Below, piece after piece: positions 25,864 through 46,423 of a stretch of 64,000 nt of DNA (within the stretch, counting starts at the first letter, position 1; every line of letters starts with the position of its first letter). Under the pieces are notes generated by a model. It saw only the letters and a list, made by a program, of their open reading frames with translations, did not search any database and was not told the origin of the DNA. The translations under genes were made by a program, and so were the position numbers. Source of the stretch: Margaritifera margaritifera (Eukaryota; Mollusca; Bivalvia; Unionida; Margaritiferidae). The stretch spans positions 2,946,001-3,010,000 of the forward strand of contig JAQPZY010001523.1 in NCBI GenBank assembly GCA_029931535.1. The letters run 5' to 3'.

Positions 25864-25898
25864 TCTTTCTTGAAAAAGGGTGGTCCTGAAAAAGGACC
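25864..25898 (-). terminator. Histone-type 3' end signal (stem-loop + HDE), left TIR
   Basis: On the minus strand, GGTCCT and AGGACC (25898-25893 and 25887-25882) form a 6-bp stem. The loop is 5 nt (TTTTC), one T longer than canonical. ACCCTTTTT and then CAAGAAAGA (25872-25864) follow, the latter like the U7-binding histone downstream element of sea urchin histone genes. It lies just after the stop of the minus-strand gene 25921-26472. Confidence 0.82.
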
Positions 25899-25920
25899 GT
25901 TGGAGGGGAAATAAAATTTT

Positions 25921-26472
25921 TTATTTTCCCCAACATTGAGTGAGAAAGCCTGGGAGGTGGAACTTCTTCTTCTTCTTCTTCTTCTCCTCCTTCTTCTTTT
26001 CAGGTATCCAGTCGGGATGATTCAATTGTCTGAACTTGTCCTGAATTTTCATCCAGTTCAAGTTCAGACGATTGAATTGTTTTTCTCTTTTCTCCTTTAC
26101 CCACATTAATTTGATTTTAGCGACCTCCTGTTCCAAAATTTGTTTAATAATAGTTTCTACTCTGAGCAGGGCCGCTTCTTGTCGAGTAAGGATGATACAT
26201 TTTAAATGATCATCCAATATTTGGATGTAATCCAAGACTTCTTTAAGAAGTCCTACTCGACAAGGTGAAGAAGAGGAGGAGTTGTTACTCTTCTTAACTT
26301 CCTCCTCCTTCTTCACTTCTTGAATTAAATTTAAAATCAAATTAATGTAGGTAAAGTGATGGATTACCCACTTCCAACTGACTGGATACCACCACATCCT
26401 TTTCTCCGTATAATACTTCACTTCCACCATCCAGTCCCAGGCTTCCTGTAGATTGTCAATAATGTCAAGCAT
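25921..26472 (-). CDS. Hypothetical accessory protein, outward-reading at left end
   Basis: A 183-residue protein that I do not recognise. It has a Trp-rich N-terminal part (WDWMVEV and WYPVSWKWVIHH), a long amphipathic helix with charged residues in the middle (IIKQILEQEVAKIKLMWVKE), and a lysine-rich tail before the C-terminus. ATG at 26472 lies about 52 bp after the shared 35-bp promoter module (26558-26524). The stop lies about 20 bp before the histone-type stem-loop in the TIR. Promoter and 3' signal on the correct strand argue that this is a real transcription unit and probably an early/accessory gene. No transmembrane segment is obvious; possibly a coiled-coil nuclear factor, which is inference only. 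Confidence 0.75.
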   Translation of the reverse strand: MLDIIDNLQEAWDWMVEVKYYTEKRMWWYPVSWKWVIHHFTYINLILNLIQEVKKEEEVKKSNNSSSSSPCRVGLLKEVLDYIQILDDHLKCIILTRQEAALLRVETIIKQILEQEVAKIKLMWVKEKREKQFNRLNLNWMKIQDKFRQLNHPDWIPEKKKEEKKKKKKKFHLPGFLTQCWGK

Positions 26473-26523
26473 TCTTGAAGAGTGAAAAAAAGTGTGAATG
26501 GCGCTACTGTGGAAGGCACCGGT

Positions 26524-26558
26524 TTATATGCAAGAAGCGCGGACGTGATGGAAAACAT
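26524..26558 (-). promoter_or_regulatory. Shared 35-bp promoter module, copy 1 (minus)
   Basis: On the minus strand: ATGTTTTCC, 4 nt, CGTCCGCGC, 7 nt, ATATAA. The same boxes with identical spacing occur at 44961-44995 and 46026-46060. It precedes the 25921-26472 gene. The ATATAA part acts as a TATA box. Confidence 0.8.
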
Positions 26559-26639
26559 TCCCTTTTTTCCCTAAAAAATCACTCATCACATATAACATAC
26601 ATAGGAGAAGGGTTTTTTTTTGGTTTGAGGGTAGACTAT

Positions 26640-26664
26640 GAGAAAAAAAAAAAAAAAAAAAAAA
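26640..26664. repeat. Poly-A tract
   Basis: About 24 A residues interrupted by no other base, in the non-coding gap between the two left minus-strand genes. The gap 26559-26728 otherwise shows AT-rich filler. Confidence 0.8.
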
Positions 26665-26728
26665 AATATACACACCACATATAAAACACACACACTTATA
26701 TATAGGCAATATTTGAAAAAATAATTAA

Positions 26729-26764
26729 TCTTTTCTTGATAAATGGGCGGTCCTAAAAAGGACC
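26729..26764 (-). terminator. Histone-type 3' end signal, copy B (minus)
   Basis: Minus strand GGTCCTTTTTAGGACC (26764-26749) has a perfect 6-bp stem and 4-nt loop and fits GGYYCTTHTHAGRRCC. About 10 nt later comes CAAGAAAAGA (26738-26729) followed by TTAATT, as in the TIR copies. It lies 36 bp beyond the stop of the small minus-strand ORF 26801-27037. Confidence 0.85.
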
Positions 26765-26800
26765 TTTTTTGTTTGTTGTTATTGTTGTTGTTTGGATTTT

Positions 26801-27037
26801 TTAACAACAAGAACATCTCCTAGAGGGTTTTCTTTTTCTTCTTGAACTTCTTCGAACTTCGGGGCCATACAGTAAAACCCTCTTTAGACAACCTTGTCTC
26901 TCCACATAACTTTGTCGATACCATGTAGCTGTATCCGTAATTTTGGTTTTAGTCCATGATGCTTTTACATACATCAGGAATGCTGGATTAAACAGCATTC
27001 CTGAAACAATGTTGGAGGATTCTACACTAACCCACAT
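26801..27037 (-). CDS. Small basic accessory protein (78 aa)
   Basis: An unrecognised 78-residue ORF with ATG at 27037 and a strongly basic, cysteine-ending tail (RRSSRRKRKPSRRCSCC). TATATATA at 27107-27114 lies about 70 bp upstream on its strand. The histone-type stem-loop follows 36 bp after the stop, which is the main reason to accept so short a frame. The segment 26874-26915 resembles the tip of a Tc1/mariner-type element (CAGTAAAACCCTC), so part of the frame could be transposon-derived. Function unknown. Confidence 0.5.
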   Translation of the reverse strand: MWVSVESSNIVSGMLFNPAFLMYVKASWTKTKITDTATWYRQSYVERQGCLKRVLLYGPEVRRSSRRKRKPSRRCSCC

Positions 27038-27106
27038 GATTTTGTTTTTTAAGAGTATTCGCCTTGGAAGAAAAAAACCGGTGAAACTTTATGAAACGAG
27101 TGGTTG

Positions 27107-27235
27107 TATATATACCTTACGATCGGATTGAAATGGATCCAAATCAACTACCAATCCAAACACGTGTTACAAGTCGGTTCGGTTTTTCTTCCAATAGGAA
27201 GAAAGCGGAGGTGTGACGTCATCTCGGGTATAAAG
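27107..27235. promoter_or_regulatory. Bidirectional promoter with palindromic CRE
   Basis: A minus-strand TATATATA (27107-27114) and plus-strand TATAAAG (27229-27235) face outward. Between them are CCAAT (27191) and a perfect CRE/ATF palindrome TGACGTCA (27214-27221), 8 bp before the plus TATA. It drives 26801-27037 leftward and 27284-27970 rightward. Confidence 0.65.
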
Positions 27236-27283
27236 GTATCGTAGCGTTCGTAGGAGGCTTTATTACTTTTTTCGACAGCCTTC

Positions 27284-27970
27284 ATGGAGACTGGAAAGAC
27301 AAGTACTACATCAATGTATTGGAGTGATCCTACAACGATAATGAATGCTGCGGCAATATTGAACTTTCGGCCGGAAGACTTTGATTTAGATTTACTAAAT
27401 CAAGAGTTTGACAATACTGCTACTACTACTACTGTACCAACAATGGTGGTGAATGATTTTAAAAGAAGACAAATGGAAGACATGGAAAATTTTGTCAAAA
27501 AGCAACGGGAAGAGGAAGAAATGTTTCTTCTTCTTCAACAACAACAGAAAGAAGAAGAAGAGAGAAGAAAACAAAGTGAAGAAGAAGAAGAAATCAGACA
27601 GCAGCAGCAGCAGCAGTTACAAGAGGAGGAGAAGAAGAAGGAAACAGGAAAGGAAAGCCTCAGTCTTCAAGAAAGAACTGTAAGTCTGTTAGAAGAGGTA
27701 TTATATGAGTTGAAATGGATGACTAATTTCTATAAGTATTCTTTAACTCATCAACCACCTAAACGGAAAAGACCATCACGGGCTAAACAACATTCTTCTT
27801 CTAAACCTTCCAGTGCTAGTGAGATGCCACCACCACCACCACCCATGTCACCAATATCACCACCACCACCAGTGACTACCACCATAATGAAAACACCATC
27901 AGTAGCAGCAGCATTAACAGGATATGGATTGGGCCGTGGTAAAGGACTACGGCATTTGAAGTTAATTTGA
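27284..27970 (+). CDS. Hypothetical coiled-coil, proline-rich accessory protein
   Basis: A 228-residue protein with no recognised homologue. Residues about 60-120 are a Glu/Gln-rich coiled coil. A candidate nuclear localisation signal PPKRKRPSRAK lies near residue 160. A proline tract (PPPPPP and ISPPPP) follows, then a glycine-containing basic tail. Charged coiled coil, NLS and proline tract suggest a nuclear regulatory protein, which is inference. ATG at 27284 is 55 bp after TATAAAG. A histone-type stem-loop begins 40 bp after the stop. CAG/CAA and GAA/GAG codon runs indicate expansion by slippage. Confidence 0.75.
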   Translation: METGKTSTTSMYWSDPTTIMNAAAILNFRPEDFDLDLLNQEFDNTATTTTVPTMVVNDFKRRQMEDMENFVKKQREEEEMFLLLQQQQKEEEERRKQSEEEEEIRQQQQQQLQEEEKKKETGKESLSLQERTVSLLEEVLYELKWMTNFYKYSLTHQPPKRKRPSRAKQHSSSKPSSASEMPPPPPPMSPISPPPPVTTTIMKTPSVAAALTGYGLGRGKGLRHLKLI

Positions 27971-27989
27971 AAGTTTTTGTTTTGAAAAC

Positions 27990-28268
27990 CAAAAACAAAA
28001 CAACCCAATGGTCCTTTTAAGGGCCCCCAGATTTCTAGAAAAGAAATCAAATTGCCAAAAAAATCAAGTTAAAACTTTAAAAAATCCCACCCCATAGTAC
28101 AAGTGTGAGTGCGTGCGTGCGTGCGTGCATTTCTACTCTAAAACAAAATAACACAAAACCACTTACTTTTTTCTCTCCAGTCATATGTATTCATCCAATT
28201 TTTTACAAAATAATTCAGCAATATAACATATAACACCAAAAAAATCACACACAAGAAAAAAACAAAGT
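27990..28268. other. Convergent 3' region with GTGC microsatellite
   Basis: Non-coding gap between the converging genes 27284-27970 and 28269-28781. Apart from the stem-loop signal it holds an A/C-rich stretch and a (GTGC)n run at about 28106-28128. Confidence 0.5.
28010..28048 (+). terminator. Histone-type 3' end signal, copy C (plus)
   Basis: GGTCCTTTTAAGGGCC (28010-28025) has a 6-bp stem with one G-U pair and loop TTTA, and fits GGYYCTTHTHAGRRCC. The 5' flank is AACCCAAT. AGAAAAGAAATC (28037-28048) is the purine-rich downstream element, less like CAAGAAAGA than the TIR copies. It follows gene 27284-27970. Confidence 0.82.
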
Positions 28269-28781
28269 TCACTTTCTGTAATGCTTGTGTGGCTTGAATT
28301 TAAACACTTGAGTTTCTTCCTTCTCACTTTTGTCTCTCTTGTGTTTCTTTTTCTTCATAGGAATCCTGTTTTCCTTTTCTTCATCTTCATTCTCACTTTC
28401 GTCTTCCATTCTTCTTACACTCTTCTTACTTTTCTTGATGATATGTTCCTCTTCTTCTTCTAGGTTTGTTAATTCTGAATTCACTTCCTCCCCCTCCTCT
28501 TCTTCTTCTTGTTCTTTCTGAGGGCATTCCGAAGACCAATGTCCTGGTCCTTTACAATGATAGCAGATATCTTTTGATTTGTCTCTCTTTTGCTGTTCAC
28601 GTTTGGGACAATCTGGAGCCCAATGTCCTTTCTTTTGACAGATGTAACAAGTATCGTCACTTTTATCTCTAGTGACAGAGGAGGATGAGTAGTCTTTACT
28701 CTTATTGTTCGTAGTATACTTTCGAATCACTGTCTGTAAATCTCTCACCAAAAAAGCAATCTGTCTTTTTGACTCTTCCAT
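28269..28781 (-). CDS. Two-zinc-knuckle (CCHC) protein
   Basis: A 170-residue protein starting at ATG 28781 (an in-frame TTG upstream is not needed). Two retroviral-type zinc knuckles: CYICQKKGHWAPDC (ligands C45, C48, H53, C58) and CYHCKGPGHWSSEC (C73, C76, H81, C86). An acidic stretch (EEEEEGEE) and a Lys/Arg-rich tail follow. Zinc knuckles of this kind bind single-stranded nucleic acid, so a role in replication or packaging near the polymerase is plausible but unproven. It is transcribed divergently from the polymerase. No histone-type signal is seen in sense orientation after its stop. Confidence 0.85.
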   Translation of the reverse strand: MEESKRQIAFLVRDLQTVIRKYTTNNKSKDYSSSSVTRDKSDDTCYICQKKGHWAPDCPKREQQKRDKSKDICYHCKGPGHWSSECPQKEQEEEEEGEEVNSELTNLEEEEEHIIKKSKKSVRRMEDESENEDEEKENRIPMKKKKHKRDKSEKEETQVFKFKPHKHYRK

Positions 28782-28845
28782 CTTGACAGTTTTTGAAAAG
28801 TTCAATCACCAAAGAAGACTGATTCTGAAGGTAAGAAGCTCTCTC

Positions 28846-28874
28846 TTTATATACTCTTCTCTCTCTATATAAAG
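28846..28874. promoter_or_regulatory. Divergent TATA boxes for the CCHC gene and DNA polymerase
   Basis: The minus strand reads TATATAAA at 28853-28846, 72 bp before the CCHC-gene ATG. The plus strand reads TATATAAAG at 28866-28874, 55 bp before the polymerase ATG at 28921. A CT-rich spacer of about 12 bp separates them. Confidence 0.7.
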
Positions 28875-28920
28875 GTGCCTGGGTGGAAAAAACTCAATCA
28901 GTTTCAAATCAGAGTTGAAG

Positions 28921-30852
28921 ATGAAAAGATCACGTCCAAACCATGATAAATCAGAACAAGAACAAACCAAGAGGCGACGAAGGTATTCCGTGCCTCCTGA
29001 AACACCCTTAGAGGAATTACTGGCTCAAGTCCATGCCAGTGACTTTGAAGATGAAATGACTGAACAACAACAACAACAACCACCTGAAACCCAAACTTTC
29101 AAGCCACCCAAAACCAAAACCAAAGTTACTGCCAACACCAGAACCCCTGACCAAGAAAGTCCTACCGCTACCGCTACCGCTAACGCTACCGTGGCTCCTG
29201 AAAATTACTATAGGATTCGAGAGACACAAAAAATCACTTCTCGAAAATTTAGGACCACGGCGTATACTCACACAGTACACTTCAAAGACTTCAAGTCTCA
29301 AGTACCTCCTGAGAAAGCGGCGCGGTTCATTACCAATTTGTGGGAATCTGTCTTACAGAACTTAAAACGGCAATGTGGAGCCAAAGAAGAGGATCGGTTG
29401 AGACTAGCTATTCATCATGACCAATTGAAGAGTCCTGTTTGGATTGAATTTAGTACCCCGGCAGAATTAACGCCAGATAAAGTCATGTCTAAAATAGAAC
29501 ATGTACAACAATCAAACGACAAATTTACTATCACCGATGGAAAGGCCACCGTTTACTTGACTCACGTTTCTCCACCTCGAGGAAGTGGACGAAGCAGAAA
29601 ACCGTTATTGGTGGACGATCTTCGTACTACCAAACGTAGTGTCGTCCAAATTAACAATACTGAAGATTCAATGTGTTTAGCCCGAGCTATCGTGGTAGGC
29701 CGTACCTATTCTAACAAGAATGAGAGCAAAGAATGGAAAAAAGCCTGGATGAACATTAGAAAATCTAACAGACCCCAACAACGAAAAGAAGCAGAACTCT
29801 TGTTACAACAAGCGGGGATCCCTAAAGAGACTGTGTGTGGAATTTCTCAATTACAGCAACTTCAAGATGTTTTGGCTCCTCATTATACATTAAAAGTTCA
29901 CCCTCAAGAAGTGCGTGGAGCTCTATTGTTTCGAGGCCCCGATTTCCCTGAAGGAAAATACATTCATCTATATCACCATCAAGAACATTTTGATACCATT
30001 ACCAGTATTACTGGATTTTTGGGATGCTCTTACTTCTGTGAGAAATGTAACAATGGATTTAATAATAGGGAGCGACACATTGCTTGTGGAGCAAGATGTC
30101 GGGGTTGTTTAGCGGACCCACCATGTCTTCCTGAACCAAAACAACATCACGTGTATTGTGAAACCTGTCGACGACGTTTTGTCAGTCCTACTTGCTATCA
30201 ACAACATCGCAAGACTCAAGGTCAGCAACAAAAATGTGCTTGTGAGTTATTACAATCGTGTTCTAAGTGTGGACAACTGATTCGTACCAACAACCCAAAG
30301 AAACACATTTGTGCTGGTAAGAAAAAATGTTCTATTTGTCATCAGATCGTCGATTTTGATCATCGATGTTTTATTCAAAAGTTTGACAAGATAGAGAAGA
30401 AAGAAGAAATAAAGATGAAGAAGAAGAACAAGAAACAAGTAGATTTCATCTTTTTTGATTTTGAATGTATGCAAGAAACAGGTACTCACATTCCAAATTT
30501 TTGTGTAGCCCATAGGGCTTGTGATCAGTGCATTCAAGAATCAATTCATTTTCACTGTCCTCATTGTAGTCGGATTCCAGGAGGACGTGAAAAAATCTTT
30601 CGTGGAGTGAATACTTTGTCGGAGTTTGCTGAATGGGTTTTAGACCCTACCACCCACGACAGTTGGAGCGAAGAAGACATTCATCGTTACGGAGATTGTC
30701 ATCGGTATGCGACCGTCATAGCTCACAATTTTTCGGGATACGATGGACAGTTTTTACTTAATTATTATTTGAACCATGGAACCGAACGTCCTGAAGTCAC
30801 CATGAATGGAAAAAAAGCTCATCTACATGAAAGTAGGACAAGTTCAATTTAA
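28921..30852 (+). pseudogene. polB: Protein-primed DNA polymerase B, fragment 1 (N-terminus, Exo I, Exo II)
   Basis: Starts at ATG 28921 after TATATAAAG; an earlier TTG is not needed. The N-terminal extension is about 350 residues and typical of Polinton polymerases (low-complexity start, then SMCLARAIVVGRT). A cluster of CxxC zinc fingers follows (CEKCNNGF, CETCRRRF, CSKCGQL, CSICHQ). The 3'-5' exonuclease Exo I motif FFDFEC is at about 30451 and Exo II AHNFSGYDGQFLL at about 30720. The frame then breaks in an A7 run near 30810 (+1 relative to the next fragment) and ends at 30852. Across three fragments the gene spans 28921-33119, about 1,400 codons. It replicates the element by protein priming. 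The break may be decay, an assembly error or, less likely, programmed frameshifting. Confidence 0.92.
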
Positions 30853-32491
30853 AGATTCAATGAGTTATTTAGCCATGCCTTTGAGTCGTATGCCAAAAAC
30901 ATTTGGCATGACAGAAATGGCCAAAGGTTACTTTCCTCACTTCTTTAACACGGAAGCTAATCAACAGGCCGTCCTACCTCATTTACCTGACCTTCATGAT
31001 TACGACCCCGATGGAATGCGCCCCGAACAGCGAGAAACTTTTTACGCTTGGTACCGTGCTCACCAGAACGATCCTTTTGACTTTCAAGAAGAGATGCTCA
31101 AATATTGTCGATCGGATGTAGATATTTTAAGACGTTGTTGTGGAAAATTTCGAGAGTTATTTCTCGATAGTGCAAAGGTCGATCCTTTGAAAGAGGCATC
31201 CACCTTACCTAAAGCCTGTTCCTTAGTCTACAGACAACATTTCATGCCCGAAAACCAACTAGCCATCATTGACTCCAACACGGGAATTTTTGCTAGTCGT
31301 CAATATTCGGTCAAAGCTTTACGTTGGCTTCATTACTTATGTCAAAAAGAAGACAAATGGATACAACATGCTAGAAACGGTGGAGGAGAAAAAAAGATTG
31401 GAGGTTATTCTGTGGATGGTTGGGATTTAGAAAACCCGCACATTGTGTACGAGTTTCAGGGGTGTTTGTTTCACGGATGCCCTATTTGTTATCCTGACCG
31501 AAACATGAAAAGCCCTTATTCAGATTCTACCATGGATCAGTTATATGAACAGACTTGTCAACGACGACTTCAGTTAGAAAGTCAAGGTTACGAAGTGATA
31601 GAAATGTGGGAACACGAGTACGATCGACGTTTGAAAATCGATCCTGAATTTAAAACCATTACTCAAAGTTACGATGCAGCCGACATTGAACCTTTAGATC
31701 CACGTCACAGTTTATTTGGAGGACGAACCAATGCTACTCGATTATTGTACGATGTGAACGAATCCCAAGGAGAAGAAATCAAATACATCGACGTGTGTTC
31801 TTTGTATCCTTCGGTGTGTAAATATGCTCGTTTTCCTACCGGACACCCTGAAATTTTAACAGAGCACATCGACGTAAAACAGATTCGTCAATACGAAGGA
31901 TTGATCAAATGTAAAGTTTTACCTCCCACAAACTTGTTTCATCCCATCTTACCTTGCCATTGTCAAGGAAAATTGATGTTTCCTTTATGTCGGACGTGTG
32001 CCGAAATGTGTAACCAAGATCATTCCTGTCACCACACAGAGGAAGAACGGTCAATGATAGGTACGTGGGTCAGTGCCGAATTGTTTCGGGCATTGGATCG
32101 TGGATACCGTTTATTGAACGTGTATGAAATTTGGCACTTTCCAACGACAGCCCAATATCAAAAGGACGACGCTACTCATCATCCAGGCATTTTTTCGGGG
32201 TACGTGAACCAATTTCTTAAACTGAAACAAGAAGCTAGTGGTTATCCTTCGTGGTGTCAAACTCCCGAAGACAAAGTACGATTCAAAGAAGAATACCGTA
32301 ACATCGAAGGCATCACTTTAGAAGACATAGAAAAAAATGAAGGAAAAAGATCGTTTGCTAAAGTGATGTTGAATTGTTTGTGGGGAAAAAATGGCTCAAC
32401 GTACGATCTTACCCAAAACGGAATACGTGGACGATCCTTATCGTTACTTTCAACTGGTGGACGACAAAAGTATTCTAGTCAAGCACGTTGA
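30806..32491 (+). pseudogene. polB: DNA polymerase B, fragment 2 (Exo III, palm motif A, motif B)
   Basis: Continues the polymerase in the next frame without losing any recognisable domain. It has Exo III YCRSDVDIL at about 31104, an endonuclease-like FQGCLFHGCPICY block, palm motif A DVCSLYPSV at about 31791, and motif B KVMLNCLWGK at about 32361. The region between motifs A and B contains a Cys/His cluster (CHCQGKLMFPLCRTCAEMC). The frame breaks again in an A6 run at about 32385, immediately after motif B, and an out-of-frame tail runs to the stop at 32491. The ATG at 30806 is an internal methionine, not a true start. Confidence 0.9.
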
Positions 32492-33119
32492 AATCGTCCG
32501 TGAGGATTTGATCATTGTTAATTTTGAAGATGAACCCAAGTTTGTGAAACCTGACAAGTTTAGTAACGTAGTCATTGCCGCCTACGTAACTGCTCATGCT
32601 CGTTTGAAGTTGTATGACGAAGCATTAGAAGTCTTGGGAGATCGTGTTCTGTATTTTGATACTGACAGTTGCATTTACATTCATCGTCCCGGTTACCCCC
32701 ACCCTACCATTCAAGGAGATCGATTAGGAGCCTGGACAGACGAGCACCCTCAAGATACCATCCTGAGTTTTGCTAGCGGTGGTCCTAAAAATTATGGGTA
32801 CCGATACCGAGATCCTCAAGGTCAACTTCACACCTCCTGTAAAGTCAAAGGATTGACTCTGAATTATCGAACTAACCAAGTCGTGAACTTTGAGGTTTTA
32901 AAAAATGCTCTGTTGTCTGGACAAGTGAAAGATTTTCAAGTAGCTACGTTAGAACCTCACAAGATTGTTCGCCTACCAAATCATAAAATCGTGACTCGAC
33001 CTGTTCAAAAAGTGTATCGTATTGTGTACCTAAAAAGAGTGAGACTTCCAGATCACACCACTTTACCTTACGGACACGCCGACTTGGAGAAGTATAAAAA
33101 AAGGAAACCCTCCTCTTGA
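32391..33119 (+). pseudogene. polB: DNA polymerase B, fragment 3 (palm motif C, C-terminus)
   Basis: Third frame of the same gene. Palm motif C YFDTDSCIY at about 32651 carries the catalytic aspartates, and KVKGLTLNY at about 32845 corresponds to the conserved lysine motif of family B. A further lysine-rich C-terminus ends at TGA 33117-33119. With fragments 1 and 2 all catalytic motifs are present in order, so the only damage is two single-base A-run differences. The TATAAAAA at 33093-33100, inside the last codons, serves the next gene. Confidence 0.9.
33093..33100 (+). promoter_or_regulatory. TATA box for first BIR gene
   Basis: TATAAAAA is embedded in the last polymerase codons, 36 bp before ATG 33129. 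An A-rich leader (AAAAAAAAG) separates the polymerase stop from the ATG. Confidence 0.5.
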
Positions 33120-33128
33120 AAAAAAAAG

Positions 33129-33509
33129 ATGACTTCAACATGGGTCTTGCCTGACTATGCTAATTGTACAAGCCGATTGAAGACGTTTAAAAAATGGCCT
33201 AAAGGGGATCGATTACCCACAGCCATCTCTTTAGCCAGAGCAGGATTTGTCTACTTTGAACAGGGAAGTTTAGTGAAATGTTTTAGTTGTGGTGCAAGCA
33301 TTCGCATGAGTCCTAAAGATTCAGCTATCGTGGAACATACCAGATGGTCACCAAACTGTGTTTACCTTTCTTTGGCGTTTCCACGGATCACATTACAATA
33401 CTTTTCGGATGGTACAGTCGACAGGTATAAAAAAGGAACCCCTTCCAAGCCTAACCTTCATTCTGACTTTTCACGTGAACCGAGCAAGAAGAAGAAAAAA
33501 AAAAAATAG
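33129..33509 (+). CDS. BIR-domain (IAP-like) protein 1
   Basis: A 126-residue protein with one baculovirus-IAP-repeat: RLKTFKKWP, LARAGFVYF, CFSCG, then VEHTRWSPNC. Zinc ligands are C51, C54, H70 and C77. The spacing C54-H70 has 15 intervening residues, one fewer than usual, and the conserved Trp before the acidic turn is missing. No RING or CARD is present. The Lys-rich tail ends at TAG 33507. BIR proteins bind caspases or IAP-binding motifs and block apoptosis; viral IAPs prolong host-cell life, and that is the likely role here by inference. It is in the same frame as the next BIR gene, separated only by TAG. Confidence 0.9.
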   Translation: MTSTWVLPDYANCTSRLKTFKKWPKGDRLPTAISLARAGFVYFEQGSLVKCFSCGASIRMSPKDSAIVEHTRWSPNCVYLSLAFPRITLQYFSDGTVDRYKKGTPSKPNLHSDFSREPSKKKKKKK

Positions 33510-34010
33510 ATGAGTATTTTTTCTAGTTTTGAGGAATTTGAGTGCGATGCCGTACGTTGTGACATCTTTGATTCAGTCACTCCCCATCGATCAAACTCTA
33601 AAGAGGCAGATCGTCCTTTATGTTTCAGTGGAAAAAATACTAAAGGAATTGACGTTAATGACAACAAGAGGAATGATGTGGAGCCTAAATGGCATATCAG
33701 AATACCTGTGACTTTATTTGGTTATTCCAAGTATGAAAGTCGACTGGAGTCATTCAAAGACAAGTGGCCAAAATATCTAGAAGGACCTAAACCGGAAAGT
33801 TTAGCTAGATCTGGATTTAAATACACGGGAGAAGGAGATAAAGTTCAATGTTTTAGTTGCGGTGTGGAACTTCGCCATTGGGAGCCTACCGACTCAGCTT
33901 ACATTGAACATGCCAGATGGTCTCCGCACTGTCACTTCTTACCTTTAGTAGCCTTAGAAGAGTACGGGTACGATGAGCCAGATGTTATGCCTACAAAGTT
34001 GAAGAAGTAA
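33510..34010 (+). CDS. BIR-domain (IAP-like) protein 2
   Basis: A 166-residue protein with a canonical C-terminal BIR: ESRLESFKDKWP, LARSGFKYTGEGDKVQCFSC, LRHW and IEHARWSPHCHF. Ligands C114, C117, H134 and C141 follow the CX2CX16HX6C pattern exactly. About 70 N-terminal residues have no recognised domain. The ATG immediately follows the TAG of BIR1, and the shared domain indicates tandem duplication followed by divergence. TATAAAAAA at 33426 could give a separate transcript. Function by family: anti-apoptotic caspase or partner binding. No RING domain, so no ubiquitin-ligase activity is expected. Confidence 0.92.
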   Translation: MSIFSSFEEFECDAVRCDIFDSVTPHRSNSKEADRPLCFSGKNTKGIDVNDNKRNDVEPKWHIRIPVTLFGYSKYESRLESFKDKWPKYLEGPKPESLARSGFKYTGEGDKVQCFSCGVELRHWEPTDSAYIEHARWSPHCHFLPLVALEEYGYDEPDVMPTKLKK

Positions 34011-34020
34011 AAAAAATTCC

Positions 34021-36943: not shown

Positions 36944-36950
36944 AAAAGAC

Positions 36951-37880: not shown

Positions 37881-37934
37881 TAGAAGGGTACCCTGCTAAA
37901 AGACTTCAGACTTGTTTTCTACCGACTAAAAAAG

Positions 37935-38366: not shown

Positions 38367-38378
38367 AAAAAAAAGAAG

Positions 38379-38386
38379 GATAAAAA
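38379..38386 (+). promoter_or_regulatory. GATAAAAA box upstream of the 38437 gene
   Basis: GGATAAAAAGG lies in the short gap after the pX-like gene, 58 bp before ATG 38437. It is a one-base variant of the TATAAAAA boxes of the preceding genes. Confidence 0.45.
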
Positions 38387-38436
38387 GGACCACCCTTCTC
38401 TGAAATGACCACACCTTTTTGGTACCTTTGAATGAA

Positions 38437-39039: not shown

Positions 39040-39051
39040 GGAAAAAAAATC

Positions 39052-40182: not shown

Positions 40183-40199
40183 TAAAAAAAACTCATAAC

Positions 40200-40655
40200 A
40201 TGCCATTCAACACAGTAGCTACTCAGACAACTCCTCCTCCTCCTTCGGAAAGTTCTTCTCTTCAAGATTTACAAAAACAACCGCTTTGGGTGTGGTGTGG
40301 AGAACGTGTGCCTAAAAATCAAATCGTCTTTTTCTGCCAAATCATTGTAGTGTTTTGTGTCATCGGAGCAGCCATTGCTAATTTGAGTTTACAACAAGGA
40401 GACAAACAATTGTGGACTATTTTACTGAGCAGTTGCATCGGTTATCTTTTACCTAGTCCCTCTTTGAAATTTACGACCACGACCGACAACAGTCACCACA
40501 ATAACGCCAGGCGTTCTTCTTCTTCTTCTTCGTCCAGTTACCACCACCAAAATACTACCAGTCCTCTTTTGGAACCTTTTGAACATCCTTCTTCTTCTGT
40601 CCACCACTTGAGTGACACCTCGGACACCACCAGATCCACTACTTTGGAACTATGA
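40200..40655 (+). CDS. Conserved Polinton membrane protein
   Basis: 151 residues. The central part holds two hydrophobic helices: VFFCQIIVVFCVIGAAIANL and LWTILLSSCIGYLLPSPSLK, joined by a short polar turn (SLQQGDK). I recognise the PKNQIVFFCQII and LSSCIGYLLP motifs as a recurring Polinton/adintovirus protein of unknown role, perhaps an internal virion membrane or entry component. The C-terminal third is Ser/His/Thr-rich and variable. The stop overlaps the next start (ATGA at 40652), a tight spacing that suggests shared expression. Confidence 0.85.
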   Translation: MPFNTVATQTTPPPPSESSSLQDLQKQPLWVWCGERVPKNQIVFFCQIIVVFCVIGAAIANLSLQQGDKQLWTILLSSCIGYLLPSPSLKFTTTTDNSHHNNARRSSSSSSSSYHHQNTTSPLLEPFEHPSSSVHHLSDTSDTTRSTTLEL

Positions 40656-41677
40656 ATGACCAATTTTATTTAACGTTACCTAGTGACAGTTCCATGGATG
40701 TGTTTCCCAACAACAGCTTATGTTGTTTTACCACCAAATTACCTCAAGCCCTCCAACTGGATCACGATGCTCATTGGGAAGTAGGTTTGGTAGAAATCAT
40801 TCATCCTACGAAAATCACAAACATCAACAAAAGATCAAATCAGATCATCGTGACAGTTAGGAACAAAAAACTACAAGATTCCTTGGAAAAAGATGATCCT
40901 AAAATCTGGGCAATAGACCCAACAAATAAAAATGACATGCGGGGACATTTCAAAAAATGGGATGGAGGGGTAGGAGCCAAAGGGGCTTATGCAGTGTATG
41001 CCCTGAGAATTCCTACGGGGTATTATTTTAATGCTCGACATTTGGTGGACACTATTGAGGCTACCTTTAACCGTCAATTTGGTAAAGCCCTAATGGAGAA
41101 CAAAAAAATAGTAAACATCAATTACAATGATGTAGCACGCCGTTTCTACATGGAATTTTCTCTGAAAGATGAAAAATCGGGTGACATGATGTCAGACAAA
41201 GAAGCTAAAGAAAAAGGCATCCCCGATCAGGAGAGAAGATTTATGACTATTGAATTTTCTGCTGGATTGTATGACATTTTGGGTGGTAATAACGAAGATA
41301 AAAGTTATCTATCACCTGTCAGCACCAACATCGAATCTTCAGAAGCTTTTCGCGACCCCGTGGAAATGAACATTGGATTAAATTTAATGTATGTGTACTC
41401 CGATGTGGTAGAGTACAGCGTGGTGGGACACACCTCAGCTCCCTTACTAAGAGTCATTCCTTTCAAAGTGGATACTAATGATGGTGCGTACGAAGAAGGT
41501 GGAAACACATTTCACATTCACCGTGAATTTGTACACCCTCATTATTATTCAGTGAGTAAATCGTATTTTGACACTGTCCAGATTAGTATAAAAGGAGATT
41601 TGGGACAAGATGTACCATTCATTGACCAAGGAAAAGTCACGGTGAAACTACATTTTCGAAAAAAACAAGTTCTCTAA
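40652..41677 (+). CDS. Penton-like minor capsid protein
   Basis: 341 residues. The start FYLTLPSDSSMDVFPNNSLC, followed by FTTKLPQALQL and HWEVGLVEIIHP, is the typical beginning of the Polinton/adintovirus penton-like protein, predicted to have a single jelly roll that fills capsid five-fold vertices. The remaining sequence is mixed strand, with the C-terminal region HREFVHPHYYSVSKSYFDTV and VKLHFRKK. It starts in an ATGA overlap with the membrane-protein stop. Length is normal for the family and there are no breaks. Confidence 0.9.
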   Translation: MNDQFYLTLPSDSSMDVFPNNSLCCFTTKLPQALQLDHDAHWEVGLVEIIHPTKITNINKRSNQIIVTVRNKKLQDSLEKDDPKIWAIDPTNKNDMRGHFKKWDGGVGAKGAYAVYALRIPTGYYFNARHLVDTIEATFNRQFGKALMENKKIVNINYNDVARRFYMEFSLKDEKSGDMMSDKEAKEKGIPDQERRFMTIEFSAGLYDILGGNNEDKSYLSPVSTNIESSEAFRDPVEMNIGLNLMYVYSDVVEYSVVGHTSAPLLRVIPFKVDTNDGAYEEGGNTFHIHREFVHPHYYSVSKSYFDTVQISIKGDLGQDVPFIDQGKVTVKLHFRKKQVL

Positions 41678-41707
41678 TAACTTTCCTCTCAAAAAAAAAA
41701 TAAAAAA

Positions 41708-42163
41708 ATGTATCCAGTGTACCAAGGAGTGCCTCGACAACGAGGACATGGTTTAGGAGATATGTTAAAATCAGCTTTTCGGACGGTAGCTCCTATTTTG
41801 AAACCGATGGTCACTCGAGGATTTCATGCCTTAAAAGATGCTGCTTTGACACAAGGAAAAGAATTTTTGCAAAATGTCCTCATTGACAAACAAAATCCAA
41901 AAGAAGCCTTTTTGAGAGCAGGCAAAAATGTGTTGATGACTACTGGTAAAGATCTTTTAGGTCTCCGAGAAAATCCTATAAATACGCTTCACGCTTCAGA
42001 CTCTGGCATTACTTCACAGCAGCAAGGACAAGGTAGAAAGAGACGAAGACGAAAAGCTCGAAATCCTTTCAAAGTTCATAAAAGAACACACGGCAGTAGT
42101 ACTTCCAGAAAGAATAGAAAAAGAAGAAGAACTGATAGAGAATTAGACGTGTTTGATTATTAA
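41708..42163 (+). CDS. Small virion protein, pVI/pX-like
   Basis: 151 residues. The start MYPVYQGVPRQRGHGLGDML, with AFRTVAPILKPMVTRG and ALTQGKEFLQNVL, forms amphipathic helices; the C-terminus is a nuclear-type basic tail (GRKRRRRKARNPF, RKNRKRRRTD). The MYPVY..RGHGLG start recurs in metazoan Polintons next to the capsid genes. By position and composition it resembles adenovirus pVI, a capsid-cement and membrane-lytic protein, but homology is not shown here. An A-rich leader precedes the ATG. Confidence 0.85.
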   Translation: MYPVYQGVPRQRGHGLGDMLKSAFRTVAPILKPMVTRGFHALKDAALTQGKEFLQNVLIDKQNPKEAFLRAGKNVLMTTGKDLLGLRENPINTLHASDSGITSQQQGQGRKRRRRKARNPFKVHKRTHGSSTSRKNRKRRRTDRELDVFDY

Positions 42164-42173
42164 ACCATTGAAA

Positions 42174-43550
42174 ATGATGCACCGAGATTCTTGCGAATGT
42201 ACCAAGTCCGAACTAGAACTGTTTTCTATGCGTCCCACCATGATGACGATGCAAGAATCCCAATGGGTAGAATTTCATCCTGTATCGTCTTTGTCGGATT
42301 CAGCTCCTATCGAATTTGAAATCAAAGGACAAACCGAAGATTACATCGATCTGAATAACACCTACTTGTACCTGAAACTTCAAGTAAAGAAAACGGCGGA
42401 CAACACCTTTCCTGCGGATGATTCCAGAGTCGCTCCCGTCAATAATTTTTTTCATTCTTTGTTCAGTGGAGTAGATTTGTACTTGAATAACAAACTGATC
42501 AGCAGCAGTTTGGATACTTACCCTTACCGTGCTTACTTGGAAAATCTCTTGTCATATGGAAAAGAAGCTAAGAACAGTCATCTGGATGCTTCAGTGATCT
42601 GGAAACCTGACACCTCGGAAAAGTTCAACGACACAGAACTGTCAGTACCGTCCAGGGTTGCTGCTGTTGCTGATGGTCAGGGTCATCTTGTTAGAGATAT
42701 AACTCCAGCAGACTCCCACAATGTGGGATTTAACGACCGTCGAAAGAAAATCAGAGGGCGAAGTTTAGAATTGATGGATCGTTTACATTTGGACATGTGG
42801 TTGCAAGACAAGTATTTACTCAATGGAGTTGATGTACGCCTGAGACTGAATCGCAGTAGTGCCGCTTTCCATTTGATGGCTAATGCTAACGAGTGGAAAA
42901 CCATCATCCAAGAAGCCAAACTTTACGTACGACGTGTAGAAATCTTACCCAAAGTAGCTAACGACATCAGTCAATCCTTGAGCAGAACCACTGCTAAGTA
43001 TCCTCTTAGACGTGTGGAAGTGAAAACCTTTACTGCAGCCGCTGGACTCCGATCCATAGTCGAAGATCACATCTTCCAAGGACAGCTCCCTAAACGTTTA
43101 TTCATTGGTATGGTTTCTAATGCAGCCTTCAATGGAGTCATCAATGAAAATCCGTTCCAGTTTCAGCACTTTAATGTCACCAAGTTAGATGTCAGTCGAG
43201 ATGGCAAGACCTTGTGTACCAGACCTTTTGAACCTGACTTTGACGCCAACGCAAAAACTTACTTGCGATCTTACTTGAGCCTGTTTGAAGCCACAGGACA
43301 GTTAAGCCGCGACTGTAGCCACGGTATTACATACGCGAATTTTGCAGGAGGGTATGCCTTGTGGGGCTTTGATTTCACTCCGGACCAAGGTAGCGATGAA
43401 GGACATTTCCACCCTATAAAATCAGGACCACTTCGTGTGGAACTTCAGTTTGGTCAACCTCTAGCCCAGACAGTGAACGTCGTCTTGTTTGCAGAGTTTG
43501 ATAACACTCTAGAGATCAACAGTTTGAGAGAAGTCATTGTAGACTATTAG
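42174..43550 (+). CDS. Major capsid protein (double jelly roll)
   Basis: 458 residues from ATG 42174; ATG 42177 is also possible and a TTG at 42153 overlaps the previous gene. The N-terminal IEFEIKGQTEDYIDLNNTYL, then VAPVNNFFHSLFSGVDLYLN and TYPYRAYLENLLSYGKEAK, are diagnostic of the Polinton hexon-like capsid protein, common in databases as F54H12.2-like. The second jelly roll includes YVRRVEILPKVANDIS and FIGMVSNAAFNG. It forms trimers that build the icosahedral shell. Length is within the family range and the frame is intact. Confidence 0.96.
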   Translation: MMHRDSCECTKSELELFSMRPTMMTMQESQWVEFHPVSSLSDSAPIEFEIKGQTEDYIDLNNTYLYLKLQVKKTADNTFPADDSRVAPVNNFFHSLFSGVDLYLNNKLISSSLDTYPYRAYLENLLSYGKEAKNSHLDASVIWKPDTSEKFNDTELSVPSRVAAVADGQGHLVRDITPADSHNVGFNDRRKKIRGRSLELMDRLHLDMWLQDKYLLNGVDVRLRLNRSSAAFHLMANANEWKTIIQEAKLYVRRVEILPKVANDISQSLSRTTAKYPLRRVEVKTFTAAAGLRSIVEDHIFQGQLPKRLFIGMVSNAAFNGVINENPFQFQHFNVTKLDVSRDGKTLCTRPFEPDFDANAKTYLRSYLSLFEATGQLSRDCSHGITYANFAGGYALWGFDFTPDQGSDEGHFHPIKSGPLRVELQFGQPLAQTVNVVLFAEFDNTLEINSLREVIVDY

Positions 43551-43579
43551 AAAGAAGAAGAAGAAGAAACAAAGAAAAG

Positions 43580-44155
43580 ATGCAAAGCAGAGAAGAGACT
43601 ATGGAAATAGATGAGGGATTTTGTGAAGTAATTCACCAGTCACCAACTACTATCACCAAAGAGGATGATAATGATGACGAAGTCATTCGTTCAGAACCTA
43701 AAAAAGAAGAGACTAATACTGTGGTTACCGAGTTTGTTGGATTTTATCCTTCTCGATGGCCAGAACACGAAAAACAGTTAGTGGATTGTTATGCTGAGGA
43801 ATTGAAATTCATCATTAACAGACTGATTAAAGAACAATGTTATGGATGTCAAACCGATCATCCCAGTCAGATACAACACGACAAATGTTTGATGTTGACA
43901 GGCGAAGAACAATTGGATGAATTTTTGGAAGATGCCTGGTCAAACATCTCAGAAACAGACGTGTTGACAAAGTGGTATAAAATCTTGCAGAAATATTCTT
44001 CTCCTCCACTCATTCCTAAGGAGATCAAACGGATCGAAGGACTCATTGAACAGAGTGAAAAACCTATCCGAGATAAATTTTCCTGGAATTACAAGACAGA
44101 TCAATTCAAGTTCAAAGTCAGGTGTGCATTGGTGACTCAATATTTCTGTTGTTGA
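43580..44155 (+). CDS. Conserved Polinton protein with CxxC/HPSQ zinc-like motif
   Basis: 191 residues. An acidic N-terminus of about 50 residues is followed by LKFIINRLIKEQCYGCQTDH, PSQIQHDKCLML and EEQLDEFLEDAW. The C-x2-C-x3-HPSQ-x2-H-x2-C pattern looks like a zinc site and recurs in hypothetical proteins beside capsid and protease genes in metazoan Polintons. Function is unknown. A purine-rich leader (GAAGAAGAAG) precedes ATG 43580. It lies between capsid and protease genes, so a morphogenesis role is plausible. Confidence 0.8.
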   Translation: MQSREETMEIDEGFCEVIHQSPTTITKEDDNDDEVIRSEPKKEETNTVVTEFVGFYPSRWPEHEKQLVDCYAEELKFIINRLIKEQCYGCQTDHPSQIQHDKCLMLTGEEQLDEFLEDAWSNISETDVLTKWYKILQKYSSPPLIPKEIKRIEGLIEQSEKPIRDKFSWNYKTDQFKFKVRCALVTQYFCC

Positions 44156-44172
44156 AGAAGGAGAAAAAAAAA

Positions 44173-44739
44173 ATGGATACCAGGGAACTTAATTACTTAT
44201 TGAATCGTAGTTCCTATACTTCTTCTTGGAATCCTGTGGTATGTGCTAAAGATGAACTACCTCATCGTAAACCAAAAAACGTTCATGCTTATGTCATCAA
44301 TACTGACGACAGTCATCTACCAGGAAGCCATTGGATTGCCGTGTACTTTCCCAATGAACACTGTGTGGAATATTTTGATTCATATGGATTACCTCCTTTG
44401 GAAAAAGACATTATCGAGTTTATGAGAAGAAATGCCATCTCAACTCGATTCAATAATGTGAGACTACAAGGATCCGATTCTATGGTGTGTGGACAATATT
44501 GTGTTCATTATCTTCATCAACGCAGTCTTGGATATTCTTTAGAACATTTACTCACTTATTTTGATAGTGACTATGTTCGAAATGATGCTAAAGTACAAAG
44601 ATGGTTTTGTGAACGTTATGGTTATCTCTTGTCTTTAGCTCACCATCGTAATGTACATCAAAATGATGTCGATGTAGAAAGTTTCACATTTACTTTACCT
44701 TCTCAACGTTGTCAACCTTGTAAATATGTTCCTGTTTGA
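44173..44739 (+). CDS. Adenain-like cysteine protease
   Basis: 188 residues from ATG 44173, preceded by a run of A; upstream alternative codons are not needed. Catalytic residues by family pattern: H53 in GSHWIAVYF, D69 in YFDSYG, Q99 and C106 in LQGSDSMVCGQYCVHYL. The Q-to-C distance of seven is as in adenain. It is a C5/Ulp1-fold maturation protease expected to process capsid precursors after assembly, perhaps at GG sites in the two core-like proteins. An AATAAA at 44787 lies 48 bp after the stop. Confidence 0.93.
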   Translation: MDTRELNYLLNRSSYTSSWNPVVCAKDELPHRKPKNVHAYVINTDDSHLPGSHWIAVYFPNEHCVEYFDSYGLPPLEKDIIEFMRRNAISTRFNNVRLQGSDSMVCGQYCVHYLHQRSLGYSLEHLLTYFDSDYVRNDAKVQRWFCERYGYLLSLAHHRNVHQNDVDVESFTFTLPSQRCQPCKYVPV

Positions 44740-44786
44740 AAAAAATTTTCATAGTTACTTGTTAATTGTTAACATAGTTTTTGTTG

Positions 44787-44792
44787 AATAAA
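44787..44792 (+). terminator. Polyadenylation signal after the protease gene
   Basis: AATAAA, followed by a T/G-rich downstream region. No histone-type stem-loop is present at this 3' end, in contrast to the accessory genes. Confidence 0.5.
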
Positions 44793-44960
44793 TATCATTT
44801 TTTGTGAATTGTTTGAAAAAAAAATGGTGTTGTGTGGTTTTTTATTGAAATTTGAAAAAAAAATAATGAATATGTTCTTTTCTCTCTCTTTCTATCGATC
44901 TAAAAAACCTCTCTATCTATCTATGATCTCCCTGTCGATCATCTGAAAAAAAATCTTACC
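44793..44960. other. Non-coding gap with CT-rich repeats
   Basis: AT-rich then pyrimidine-rich sequence (TCTCTCTCTT, CTATCTATCT). No ORF or known site was seen. Confidence 0.4.
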
Positions 44961-44995
44961 ATGTTTTCCATCGCGTCCGCGCGTTAAGCATATAA
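44961..44995 (+). promoter_or_regulatory. Shared 35-bp promoter module, copy 2
   Basis: ATGTTTTCC, ATCG, CGTCCGCGC, 7 nt, ATATAA. The spacing is identical to 26524-26558 (minus) and 46026-46060. It precedes the 45075-45500 gene. Confidence 0.8.
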
Positions 44996-45074
44996 GGCGG
45001 TTCACTAGCCAGTGTAGTCATTTTCGTTGACTCGTCAAGATCTCAACAGTGTTCCAAGAAGAAAGAAAAAGAAG

Positions 45075-45500
45075 ATGGCTGCCACCAAGATTACAAAGTT
45101 GAATGAAGCTATGGTGAACATAATGAGGGTAAAGAATCATTTGATGGAGACCAACCCAGAGAGAAAGACCATGACGTTCATTCAAATGGCTCATGATCTA
45201 GTAGAAGAAGTCCTGAGAGAAGAAATACTTAGAGAAAGAACAGAATGGGAAGCAGAACAACGTCTACATCAGCAACAAAGTCAGCAGCAACAAAGACAAC
45301 AGCAGCAGCAGCAGCAGCAGCAACTTCTTCAGCAGCAATCCAGCAAGCAATTTGACGGTGAAGTCTTATGTAAGATTGACTGCGATGATTTTGCTTTCAC
45401 TTTCAGTAGAAAGAGACCTGCCTGTCTGAAAGCGGTAAGACCACCCACTATCGCTAAACGTGGCCGACCTGCTGGAGCTGCCACGGCTACATCTACCTAA
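45075..45500 (+). CDS. Poly-Q accessory protein with AT-hook-like motif
   Basis: 141 residues from ATG 45075; an upstream TTG at 45027 is in frame but lies close to the expected transcript start. The N-terminal helical part (AMVNIMRVKNHL, MAHDLVEEVLREEILRERTE) is followed by a Gln run of about 30, then KIDCDDFAFTFSRKRP and a C-terminal KRGRPAG resembling an AT-hook core. It is probably a nuclear DNA-binding early protein, which is inference. It has the shared promoter module upstream and a histone-type stem-loop 40 bp after the stop. Not recognised as any named family. Confidence 0.75.
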   Translation: MAATKITKLNEAMVNIMRVKNHLMETNPERKTMTFIQMAHDLVEEVLREEILRERTEWEAEQRLHQQQSQQQQRQQQQQQQQQLLQQQSSKQFDGEVLCKIDCDDFAFTFSRKRPACLKAVRPPTIAKRGRPAGAATATST

Positions 45501-45539
45501 AAGAAGTTTTTAAAAAATATAAACTTCTTTAAACCCAAC

Positions 45540-45575
45540 GGTCCTTTTTAGGGCCACCCAATCTCTAGAAAAAGA
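45540..45575 (+). terminator. Histone-type 3' end signal, copy D (plus)
   Basis: GGTCCTTTTTAGGGCC (45540-45555) has a 6-bp stem with one G-U pair and loop TTTT, and fits GGYYCTTHTHAGRRCC. The flank AACCCAAC precedes it and ACCCAATCTCT follows, then AGAAAAAGATTA as the downstream element (45567 on). It follows gene 45075-45500. An AT-rich hairpin (AAGAAGTTT..AAACTTCTT, 45500-45529) lies just before it. Confidence 0.85.
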
Positions 45576-46025
45576 TTACTTCTCTCCAATATTGCCAAAA
45601 ATAATAATATCTATAATAAGTGTGTGTGATATATATATTATTTATAATAGTCTACCACCCCTCAAACAAAAAAATCCTTCTCCCTATATGATTTGTGTGG
45701 AGTGTGATTGTTCTATAAAAAATTTTTAACTTAACAAAAAAATGTAGATAGTGTGTTTGTGTGTTTGATTTGTTTAAAAAAATTTTCCCTTCCCCCAAAA
45801 AAGTGGATAGTGTGTAAGTTTTTTTAAAAAAAAAAAATAACAAAAAAATTAGTATGGTGTGTAGGTTTGATTTTTTATCAAAAGTAGTTTCTTTTAGGTC
45901 CGCGCTTTTTTAGAGTCAGGGTTCATAGAGTGTAAACTCCGCGAAGCTAAGAATGACGTAGAAGGAATGACGTAAGACGCAGGATAGTGGGTAATGTTTT
46001 TTTGTTTTTTCTTTAGGTGAAAGGG
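45576..46025. other. Non-coding spacer with CRE-like half-sites
   Basis: AT-rich tract with A/T runs and GTGTGT stretches. A degenerate copy of the promoter box (GTCCGCGC) is at 45898-45905. Two ATF/CRE-like sites TGACGTA lie at about 45955 and 45969. No ORF was seen. Probably upstream control of 46098-46361. Confidence 0.45.
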
Positions 46026-46060
46026 ATGTTTTCCTTCACGTCCGCACTTTTAGTATATTA
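46026..46060 (+). promoter_or_regulatory. Shared 35-bp promoter module, copy 3
   Basis: ATGTTTTCC, TTCA, CGTCCGCAC, 7 nt, ATATTA, with the same spacing as the other two copies. It lies 43 bp before ATG 46098. Confidence 0.8.
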
Positions 46061-46097
46061 AAACCACGTCTTCACCGGTTAAGCTACCCGCAAAAAA

Positions 46098-46361
46098 ATG
46101 ATCAGCTTAACACAGCTTAAACAAGTAAATCAAATCTTGGATGTACTATCTAAAGTCATCCAAGAGATGATAAAAAAGGAAGAGGAGAAGAGGGAAAGCA
46201 GAATCACCATTAGGGCTCACCCTATGCTAGACGAAGAGTGGGAAATGGAAGCTGACCATCCACCCTTCTTTTTAAAACCAAAAACAAGAACAAAAGAAGA
46301 AATCTGGAGGGGGAGCTGCCCTGCGTGCAGGGCAAAGTCAGGGAGATGCTCCCACCTCTAA
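46098..46361 (+). CDS. Hypothetical accessory protein, outward-reading at right end (87 aa)
   Basis: An unrecognised 87-residue protein. A helical N-terminus (LKQVNQILDVLSKVIQEMIK) is followed by charged residues, then an acidic/Trp segment (LDEEWEMEADHPPFFLK) and a C-terminal CPACRAKSGRC that could bind a metal or form disulfides. It has the shared promoter module upstream and ends 28 bp before the histone-type stem-loop in the right TIR. It mirrors the left outward-reading gene in arrangement but not in sequence. Confidence 0.65.
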   Translation: MISLTQLKQVNQILDVLSKVIQEMIKKEEEKRESRITIRAHPMLDEEWEMEADHPPFFLKPKTRTKEEIWRGSCPACRAKSGRCSHL

Positions 46362-46389
46362 ATCTTTCCCACGAATACAAAAAACCAAC

Positions 46390-46423
46390 GGTCCTTTTCA
46401 GGACCACCCTTTTTCAAGAAAGA
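46390..46423 (+). terminator. Histone-type 3' end signal, copy E (right TIR)
   Basis: GGTCCTTTTCAGGACC (46390-46405) has a perfect 6-bp stem and TTTC loop, the canonical metazoan form of GGYYCTTHTHAGRRCC. The flanks are AACCAAC before and ACCCTTTTT after, then CAAGAAAGA (46415-46423). It follows gene 46098-46361 in sense orientation. Confidence 0.9.

Follow-up and report, generated by a model that had tools for sequence, protein, structure and literature searches.

Histone-type 3' processing signals and promoter elements on accessory genes of a Polinton/Maverick element in the bivalve Margaritifera margaritifera

Some DNA viruses have promoters that respond to S phase through E2F, and viral genes are in this way coupled to the host cell cycle. 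A different arrangement serves animal histone genes, in which SLBP binds a stem-loop in the mRNA, U7 small nuclear RNA (snRNA) pairs with a downstream element and CPSF73 cuts between the two, leaving an mRNA with no poly(A) tail (PMC7026596 and PMC1924863). Here we describe a Polinton/Maverick mobile element of Margaritifera margaritifera in which five accessory genes, named A to E, carry signals of this histone type. The element occupies positions 25653-46633 (20,981 bp) of a stretch of 64,000 nucleotides, hereafter the window, which corresponds to positions 2946001-3010000 of contig JAQPZY010001523.1 (assembly GCA_029931535.1; the genome searched comprises 2.45 Gb in 1696 contigs). Judged by sequence, genes A, D and E have the build of replication-dependent histone genes at either end, and in B and C the likeness concerns the 3' end. 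We consider it likely, with a probability of about 0.8, that the A-E mRNAs appear and decay with histone mRNAs in S phase, their 3' ends being formed by the SLBP/U7 pathway and left free of a poly(A) tail.

The element is a Polinton/Maverick. Its termini read AGTAGT...ACTACT, it is enclosed by a 6-bp target duplication (GGCGCT, at 25647-25652 and 46634-46639), and it has terminal inverted repeats (TIRs), with inverted arms of 197 nt (97% identity) and 67 nt (96%). It encodes a family B DNA polymerase (PolB; PF03175, E 9.1e-33), an rve integrase (PF00665, E 3.1e-13) with an attached chromodomain, and an A32/FtsK-type packaging ATPase (PF04665, E 2.4e-8); candidate frames for the major and minor capsid proteins gave no Pfam match above cut-off. 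PMC8097293 describes the same AGT-repeat termini in vertebrate Mavericks, and the element further shares with Polintons as portrayed there the 6-bp duplication, PolB, the rve integrase, the A32-type ATPase and accessory regions placed around a core. It differs in the features reported below, the words "histone" and "hairpin" having 0 occurrences in the main text of that paper.

A, B and C stand at the left end of the element and D and E at the right end. The genes, and a protease gene that serves as a contrast, are as follows (dN/dS, the ratio of nonsynonymous to synonymous substitution rates, by the NG86 method).

25921..26472, minus strand: accessory gene A, 183 aa; dN/dS median 0.21, 15 copies
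26801..27037, minus strand: accessory gene B, 78 aa; dN/dS median 0.12, 19 copies
27284..27970, plus strand: accessory gene C, 228 aa; dN/dS median 0.38, 4 copies
45075..45500, plus strand: accessory gene D, 141 aa; dN/dS median 0.12, 16 copies
46098..46361, plus strand: accessory gene E, 87 aa; dN/dS median 0.20, 16 copies
44173..44739, plus strand: protease gene, without hairpin; weak match to PF00770 Peptidase_C5 (E 0.043, below cut-off) on a frame that includes the gene; dN/dS median 0.26, 12 copies

The original prediction held that five hairpins with histone-mRNA-type processing signals follow these accessory genes, each in sense orientation 20-40 bp past a stop codon. All five were found at the predicted positions and on the predicted strands, at measured distances of 22, 36, 39, 39 and 28 nt from the stops of A to E, and each was scored with the histone stem-loop model RF00032.

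25882..25898, minus strand: histone-type hairpin of A, 5-nt loop; 27.2 bits, 22 nt past stop
25864..25870, minus strand: purine box of A, resembling the histone downstream element, AGAAAGA; 12 nt after stem
26749..26764, minus strand: histone-type hairpin of B; 32.9 bits, 36 nt past stop
26729..26736, minus strand: purine box of B, AGAAAAGA; 13 nt after stem
28010..28025, plus strand: histone-type hairpin of C; 21.6 bits, 39 nt past stop
28037..28044, plus strand: purine box of C, AGAAAAGA; 12 nt after stem
45540..45555, plus strand: histone-type hairpin of D; 31.6 bits, 39 nt past stop
45567..45575, plus strand: purine box of D, AGAAAAAGA; 12 nt after stem
46390..46405, plus strand: histone-type hairpin of E, identical in its 16 nt to that of host H1; 36.1 bits, 28 nt past stop
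46417..46423, plus strand: purine box of E, AGAAAGA; 12 nt after stem
44787..44792, plus strand: AATAAA poly(A) signal of the protease gene; 47 bases after stop

As had been claimed, four hairpins fit the consensus GGYYCTTHTHAGRRCC (6-bp stem, 4-nt loop) exactly and the fifth, that of A at 25882-25898, has one additional loop T. The purine box, AGAAA(A)(A)GA, likewise stands where it was said to stand, beginning 12-13 nt past the stem in 5/5 cases; with its context it reads CAAGAAA(A)GA in A, B and E and CTAGAAA(A)(A)GA in C and D. For comparison, such a box at an offset of 10-16 nt is met at 123 of 10,120 positions (1.2%; both strands) of the accessory regions. The check proposed with the prediction, a scan of the whole window with RF00032 at E<=1, returned five matches, every one inside the element, and a search by hairpin pattern gave 5 in the element, 0 in the 43 kb of flank and a mean of 0.003 (maximum 1) in 1000 dinucleotide shuffles of the element. 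These shuffles, the flanks and the conservation in element copies described below rule out chance hairpins. Since the hairpins of A and E both fall at the inner TIR ends, the window element provides four, not five, independent sites. By eye, an additional AT-rich inverted repeat can be seen between stop and hairpin in A (25898-25921), C (27971-28009) and D (45501-45539), and these repeats could reduce the stop-hairpin distance in the RNA.

The host's own histone genes provide the most direct comparison. Histone clusters were located by a Pfam histone search; one unit of about 8 kb (locus L092) carries H3, H4, H2B, H2A and H1 on a single strand. The hairpins of these genes have the form GGCCCTTTT[TAC]AGGGCC, except that of H1 (GGTCCTTTTCAGGACC, the same 16 letters as in gene E); all stand 27-36 nt past the stop and are followed by a purine box. 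In H3 this box is AAGAAAAGA or ATGAAAAGA and in H2B TAGAAAAGA or TAGGAAAGA, at the same spacing as in the element, whereas H4 (TAGAGAAGA, TCGAAAAGA) and H2A are more variable. With RF00032, the hairpins of the six histone genes in L092 reach 36.1-38.0 bits and those of six rescanned element loci 20.3-45.4. A host SLBP gene is present (PF15247, 64.3 and 38.8 bits, contig C413). Genes A-E accordingly resemble replication-dependent animal histone genes in hairpin class, stop-hairpin distance, box position and uninterrupted frame, and A, D and E also in the H2B/H1 promoter element treated below; they differ in that their proteins are not histones and that they reside on a mobile element, outside the histone clusters.

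Copies of the element elsewhere in the genome allow the 3' ends to be compared across divergence. The genome-wide RF00032 search was followed up by scoring the best 75 candidates and examining 35 of the 75 places; 35/35 of these were element copies with a hairpin after a homologue of A, B or E, and the same loci also have hairpins after C and D. To sample ends that had not been chosen by hairpin, the opposite ends of 20 copies were taken by distance alone; two of the 20 stretches did not contain the sought genes, and one (L068) had B and C instead. In these ends, a zero-mismatch hairpin follows D in 15/15 readable cases (one truncated) and E in 14/15, the exception (L086) having its first pair broken. 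AATAAA or ATTAAA occurs within 170 nt downstream of the protease in 14/17 cases and of D in 0/15. We then pooled every end whose own hairpin had played no part in its selection, omitting 34 homology pieces that stopped short of 90% of the protein, 9 pieces from a pair of overlapping loci and 2 repeated ends. A hairpin was present in 53/59 (A 1/1, B 14/16, C 5/7, D 16/16, E 17/19), whereas protease ends have a histone-type hairpin in 0/17. Of these 53, 48 have the box AGAAA(A)(A)GA between +12 and +14. Related hairpins in other elements of this genome, the absence of which had been named as grounds for rejecting the prediction, are many.

Within the 53 stems, pairs 1 and 2 are G-C in 52 and G-T in 1; pair 3 is T-G in 31, T-A in 15 and C-G in 7; pair 4 is C-G in 52 and T-A in 1; pair 5 is C-G in 51 and T-G in 2; and pair 6 is T-A. 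Among 29 ends chosen by Rfam score, pair 4 is T-A in 22. Perfect pairing as such is selected here, because the test admits only zero-mismatch stems of histone form, and the informative part is the types of pair; by these the stem is conserved through compensatory, pairing-preserving change.

This conservation bears on the view that the hairpins have no present function and remain from a single capture of a histone 3' region and promoter of the host, followed by duplication inside the element and dispersal by transposition. The identity of the E hairpin with that of host H1 would fit such an origin, as would the hairpin that A and E have in common via the TIRs and the lack of independence of signals between copies. 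Against it, 53/59 ends keep the hairpin while their stems change by pairing-preserving substitutions, the protease end has no hairpin, A, B, D and E show no similarity to histones, and A-E are under purifying selection at a median dS of 0.5-2.3; we regard a functionless remnant as highly unlikely. The evidence for selection is the set of dN/dS medians given above, which were computed on stop-free frames only, a choice that biases them toward low values, and with overlapping loci included. Median dS for A-E is 0.49-2.33 (values near or above 1 being imprecise), from which it follows that the signals have been maintained across considerable divergence.

Beyond the 3' ends, A, D and E have a second histone-like feature, the 17-nt element TTTTCC[AT]TC[AG]CGTCCGC upstream of the gene with a TATA-like box after it. 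In the host it occurs without mismatch about 100 nt ahead of the H2B start and with one mismatch each ahead of H1 (115 nt) and, in reversed orientation, H2A (about 180 nt).

26539..26555, minus strand: H2B-type promoter element of A, TTTTCCATCACGTCCGC; 0 mismatches to host H2B promoters
44964..44980, plus strand: H2B-type promoter element of D; 1 mismatch
46029..46045, plus strand: H2B-type promoter element of E; 1 mismatch
27107..27135, minus strand: H2A-like promoter segment of B, CATTTCAATCC-N-TATATATA (a weaker claim); in 5/7 copies, overall similarity inside the shuffled null
45887..45905, plus strand: H4-type promoter motif GTTTCTTTTAGGTCCGCGC, with no clear gene of its own; exact 19-nt copy

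Ungapped matching to H2B promoters scored 26.5 for A, 20.5 for D and 20.0 for E, where 40 shuffles of each reached at most 15.5, 14.5 and 14.0. The scores of B (11.5), of C (12.0) and of nine further genes of the element (9-12) all fell inside their nulls. In copies, the element is found with at most two mismatches in 20/24 A, 14/16 D and 15/16 E cases, 75-118 nt before the start of homology, and in 0/14 protease copies (counted without a pair of overlapping loci and without homologies that begin beyond residue 10). For B, an H2A-like arrangement, CATTTC[AG]ATCC-TATA, occurs in 5/7 copies and may be put forward as a weaker claim. The factor that would bind the 17-nt element may be HINFP-like; a search for the factor gave nothing useful. 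The H4-type motif at 45887-45905 stands about 140 nt upstream of E's own H2B-type element, and is the same in two of three host H4 promoters, with one variant letter in the third.

The presence of a host histone promoter element on A, D and E supports the inference of S-phase expression independently of the hairpins. It also bears on whether the hairpins might be terminators, packaging signals or replication signals peculiar to the element, histone-like by convergence, as their placement near both element ends, including the inner TIR ends in two cases, could suggest. Every window hairpin, however, is in sense orientation just past a stop, on either strand; each is followed by a box at host histone spacing, for which a terminator or packaging signal has no need; and three of the same genes bear histone promoter elements. 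Convergence of this kind seems to us hardly credible.

Taken together, the histone-type cis signals on A-E, joined by the promoter element on A, D and E, point to co-expression with histones, most likely in S phase. Histone transcription factors would act at the promoters of A, D and E; SLBP would bind the hairpin of the accessory mRNA; the U7 small nuclear ribonucleoprotein would pair with the purine box (CAAGAAAAGA, CTAGAAAAGA), with cleavage between hairpin and box; and the A-E mRNAs would be translated and would decay as histone mRNAs do. Ordinary polyadenylation would be left to core genes such as the protease. A likely benefit would be the presence of small, probably regulatory accessory proteins exactly in DNA-replicating cells, or in germ cells or embryos rich in histone factors. 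The last possibility leads to the main rival, in which the SLBP/U7 signals are real and serve expression in the germline, oocyte or early embryo, settings rich in histone factors and in mRNAs that lack a poly(A) tail, in place of S-phase timing as such. Cis signals name machinery and not timing, which leaves room for a germline or embryo purpose; the promoter element, on the other hand, belongs to clustered histone genes with stem-loop ends. Nothing speaks directly against this rival, which overlaps the S-phase reading, and we judge it unlikely.

A number of observations weigh against histone-type expression in S phase. E alone exceeds the Rfam gathering score of 34, the other 4/5 window hairpins lying below it, and the C hairpin (21.6 bits) scores no better than stem-loop matches at 2 places in viral contigs (21.3-21.9 bits), which have no box and were judged to be chance. 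The promoter element is found in 0/7 B copies and 0/20 C copies. AATAAA or ATTAAA lies near 3/15 E ends too, and 6/59 pooled ends fail the hairpin test: a B end in L011 has a perfect stem with the loop TTAA and a box; a C end in L013 has the start of its hairpin visible just past an AT-rich hairpin that outranked it; one C end in L068 and the E end in L086 have the first pair broken; and B in L007 and E in L010 have no such hairpin. Because each copy was detected by a hairpin at another of its sites, and the copies share descent, the counts are not independent. On the host side, the H2A box is somewhat different (CGAAAAGGA), and U7 snRNA gave no match to RF00066 at E<=1e-3, a search that was equally blank in every control genome. 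Lastly, among 100 listed places of the genome-wide hairpin pattern, 7/200 free pair cells are C-A mismatches, compared with a shuffled-partner mean of 12.6 (8/2000 shuffles as low), and this sample accordingly gives positive but modest evidence for pairing.

The pattern in question, GGYYCTTWTHAGRRCCACCC, which leaves pairing free at two positions, has 2790+2882 = 5672 occurrences in the genome, against 6+4 = 10 for the reversed control. The promoter pattern TTTTCCWTCRCGTCCGCGC occurs 3468 times and its reversed control 0 times. For 78 of 100 listed promoter places, a partner lies at a distance like that within an element, either 0.5-3.5 kb away on the same strand or 15-21 kb away and facing outward, and this spacing suggests a copy number of the order of a thousand.

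What the accessory proteins do is suggested by their composition. None of A-E has a Pfam family above cut-off or a Pfam histone match, and homologues of D and A were absent from a large protein set at the limits used. Gln-rich, charged and basic stretches, noted by eye, make it likely that A-E are regulators; the predicted structure of gene A, folded alone, had a mean pLDDT of 47 and was not used. In comparisons with host histones, 24/25 were equalled by at least 14/200 shuffles, and the remaining one is a 16-residue tail likeness. Histone ancestry of the A-E proteins is unsupported apart from these final 16 residues of gene C, set against the H4 tail. The C-terminus concerned (27920-27970, plus strand), GYGLGRGKGLRHLKLI, resembles the H4 tail GKGLGKGGAKRHRKVL with 12/5000 shuffles equal, this being the best among the pairs tried, and a similar C-terminus recurs in element copies; a weak case can be made for a possible histone-tail mimic.

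The original prediction knew of no earlier description in Polintons or adintoviruses, and we found none in open-licence literature, where titles and the starts of abstracts disclosed neither histone stem-loop signals nor histone promoter mimicry on Polintons or in any viral or transposon case; the one paper found that mentions both adintoviruses and stem-loops concerns cryptophyte viruses. Histone stem-loop processing and Polintons are each known, and their combination, with promoter mimicry added, is new as far as open-licence papers show. The central claim of the prediction, that accessory genes bear histone-mRNA-type 3' signals, holds up on RF00032 score, position, strand, box spacing, pairing-preserving conservation, the lack of a hairpin at the protease and likeness to host histone genes. 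A-E are probably the first non-histone protein-coding genes to be run as replication-dependent histone genes, five under SLBP/U7 and three also under a histone promoter element, with core genes polyadenylated. Unlike E2F-responsive viruses, the element would achieve its coupling to the cell cycle through histone promoter elements and histone 3'-end processing.

If true, viral mRNAs that end in a histone stem-loop would form a new class, mobile-element activity would be tied directly to the histone locus body, Polintons would gain a concrete and testable link to host DNA replication, and histone-factor biology would gain natural non-histone substrates. The two-class layout, with a poly(A) signal on the protease and stem-loops on the accessory genes, is suggestive of an early/late-like programme in Polintons, and accessory transcripts are predicted to be missed by poly(A)-selected RNA-seq.

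Other sequence collections were searched for relatives of the element. Queries with its PolB and ATPase found no relatives in viral contigs; among prokaryote genome contigs there were 4 distant ATPase relatives, in metagenome bins. The contigs bearing them gave no RF00032 match at E<=1, a result of little weight, as the fragments may omit element ends. Besides these distant Polinton-type ATPases in bacteria-binned contigs, a 66% relative is listed under a Candidatus Thiodiazotropha metagenome-assembled genome (L003-L006, P0006), and their occurrence in bacterial bins is likely host contamination of the bins.

Several further features of the element were seen. Its accessory region holds a zinc-knuckle gene (28269-28781, minus strand) with neither histone-type hairpin nor promoter element, and its core region two adjacent BIR (inhibitor-of-apoptosis) genes (33129-34010). 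Each TIR contains one 52-nt near-perfect palindrome (25663-25774 and 46512-46623; 98%, 8-nt loop), whose likeness to microRNA precursors is below family cut-off only. In two copies (L009, L018), genes E and A stand in tandem on one strand about 0.9 kb apart, an end layout unlike that of the window. Diverged repeats of about 81 nt surround the window element, with units on both sides (24813-25036 and 46887-47379).

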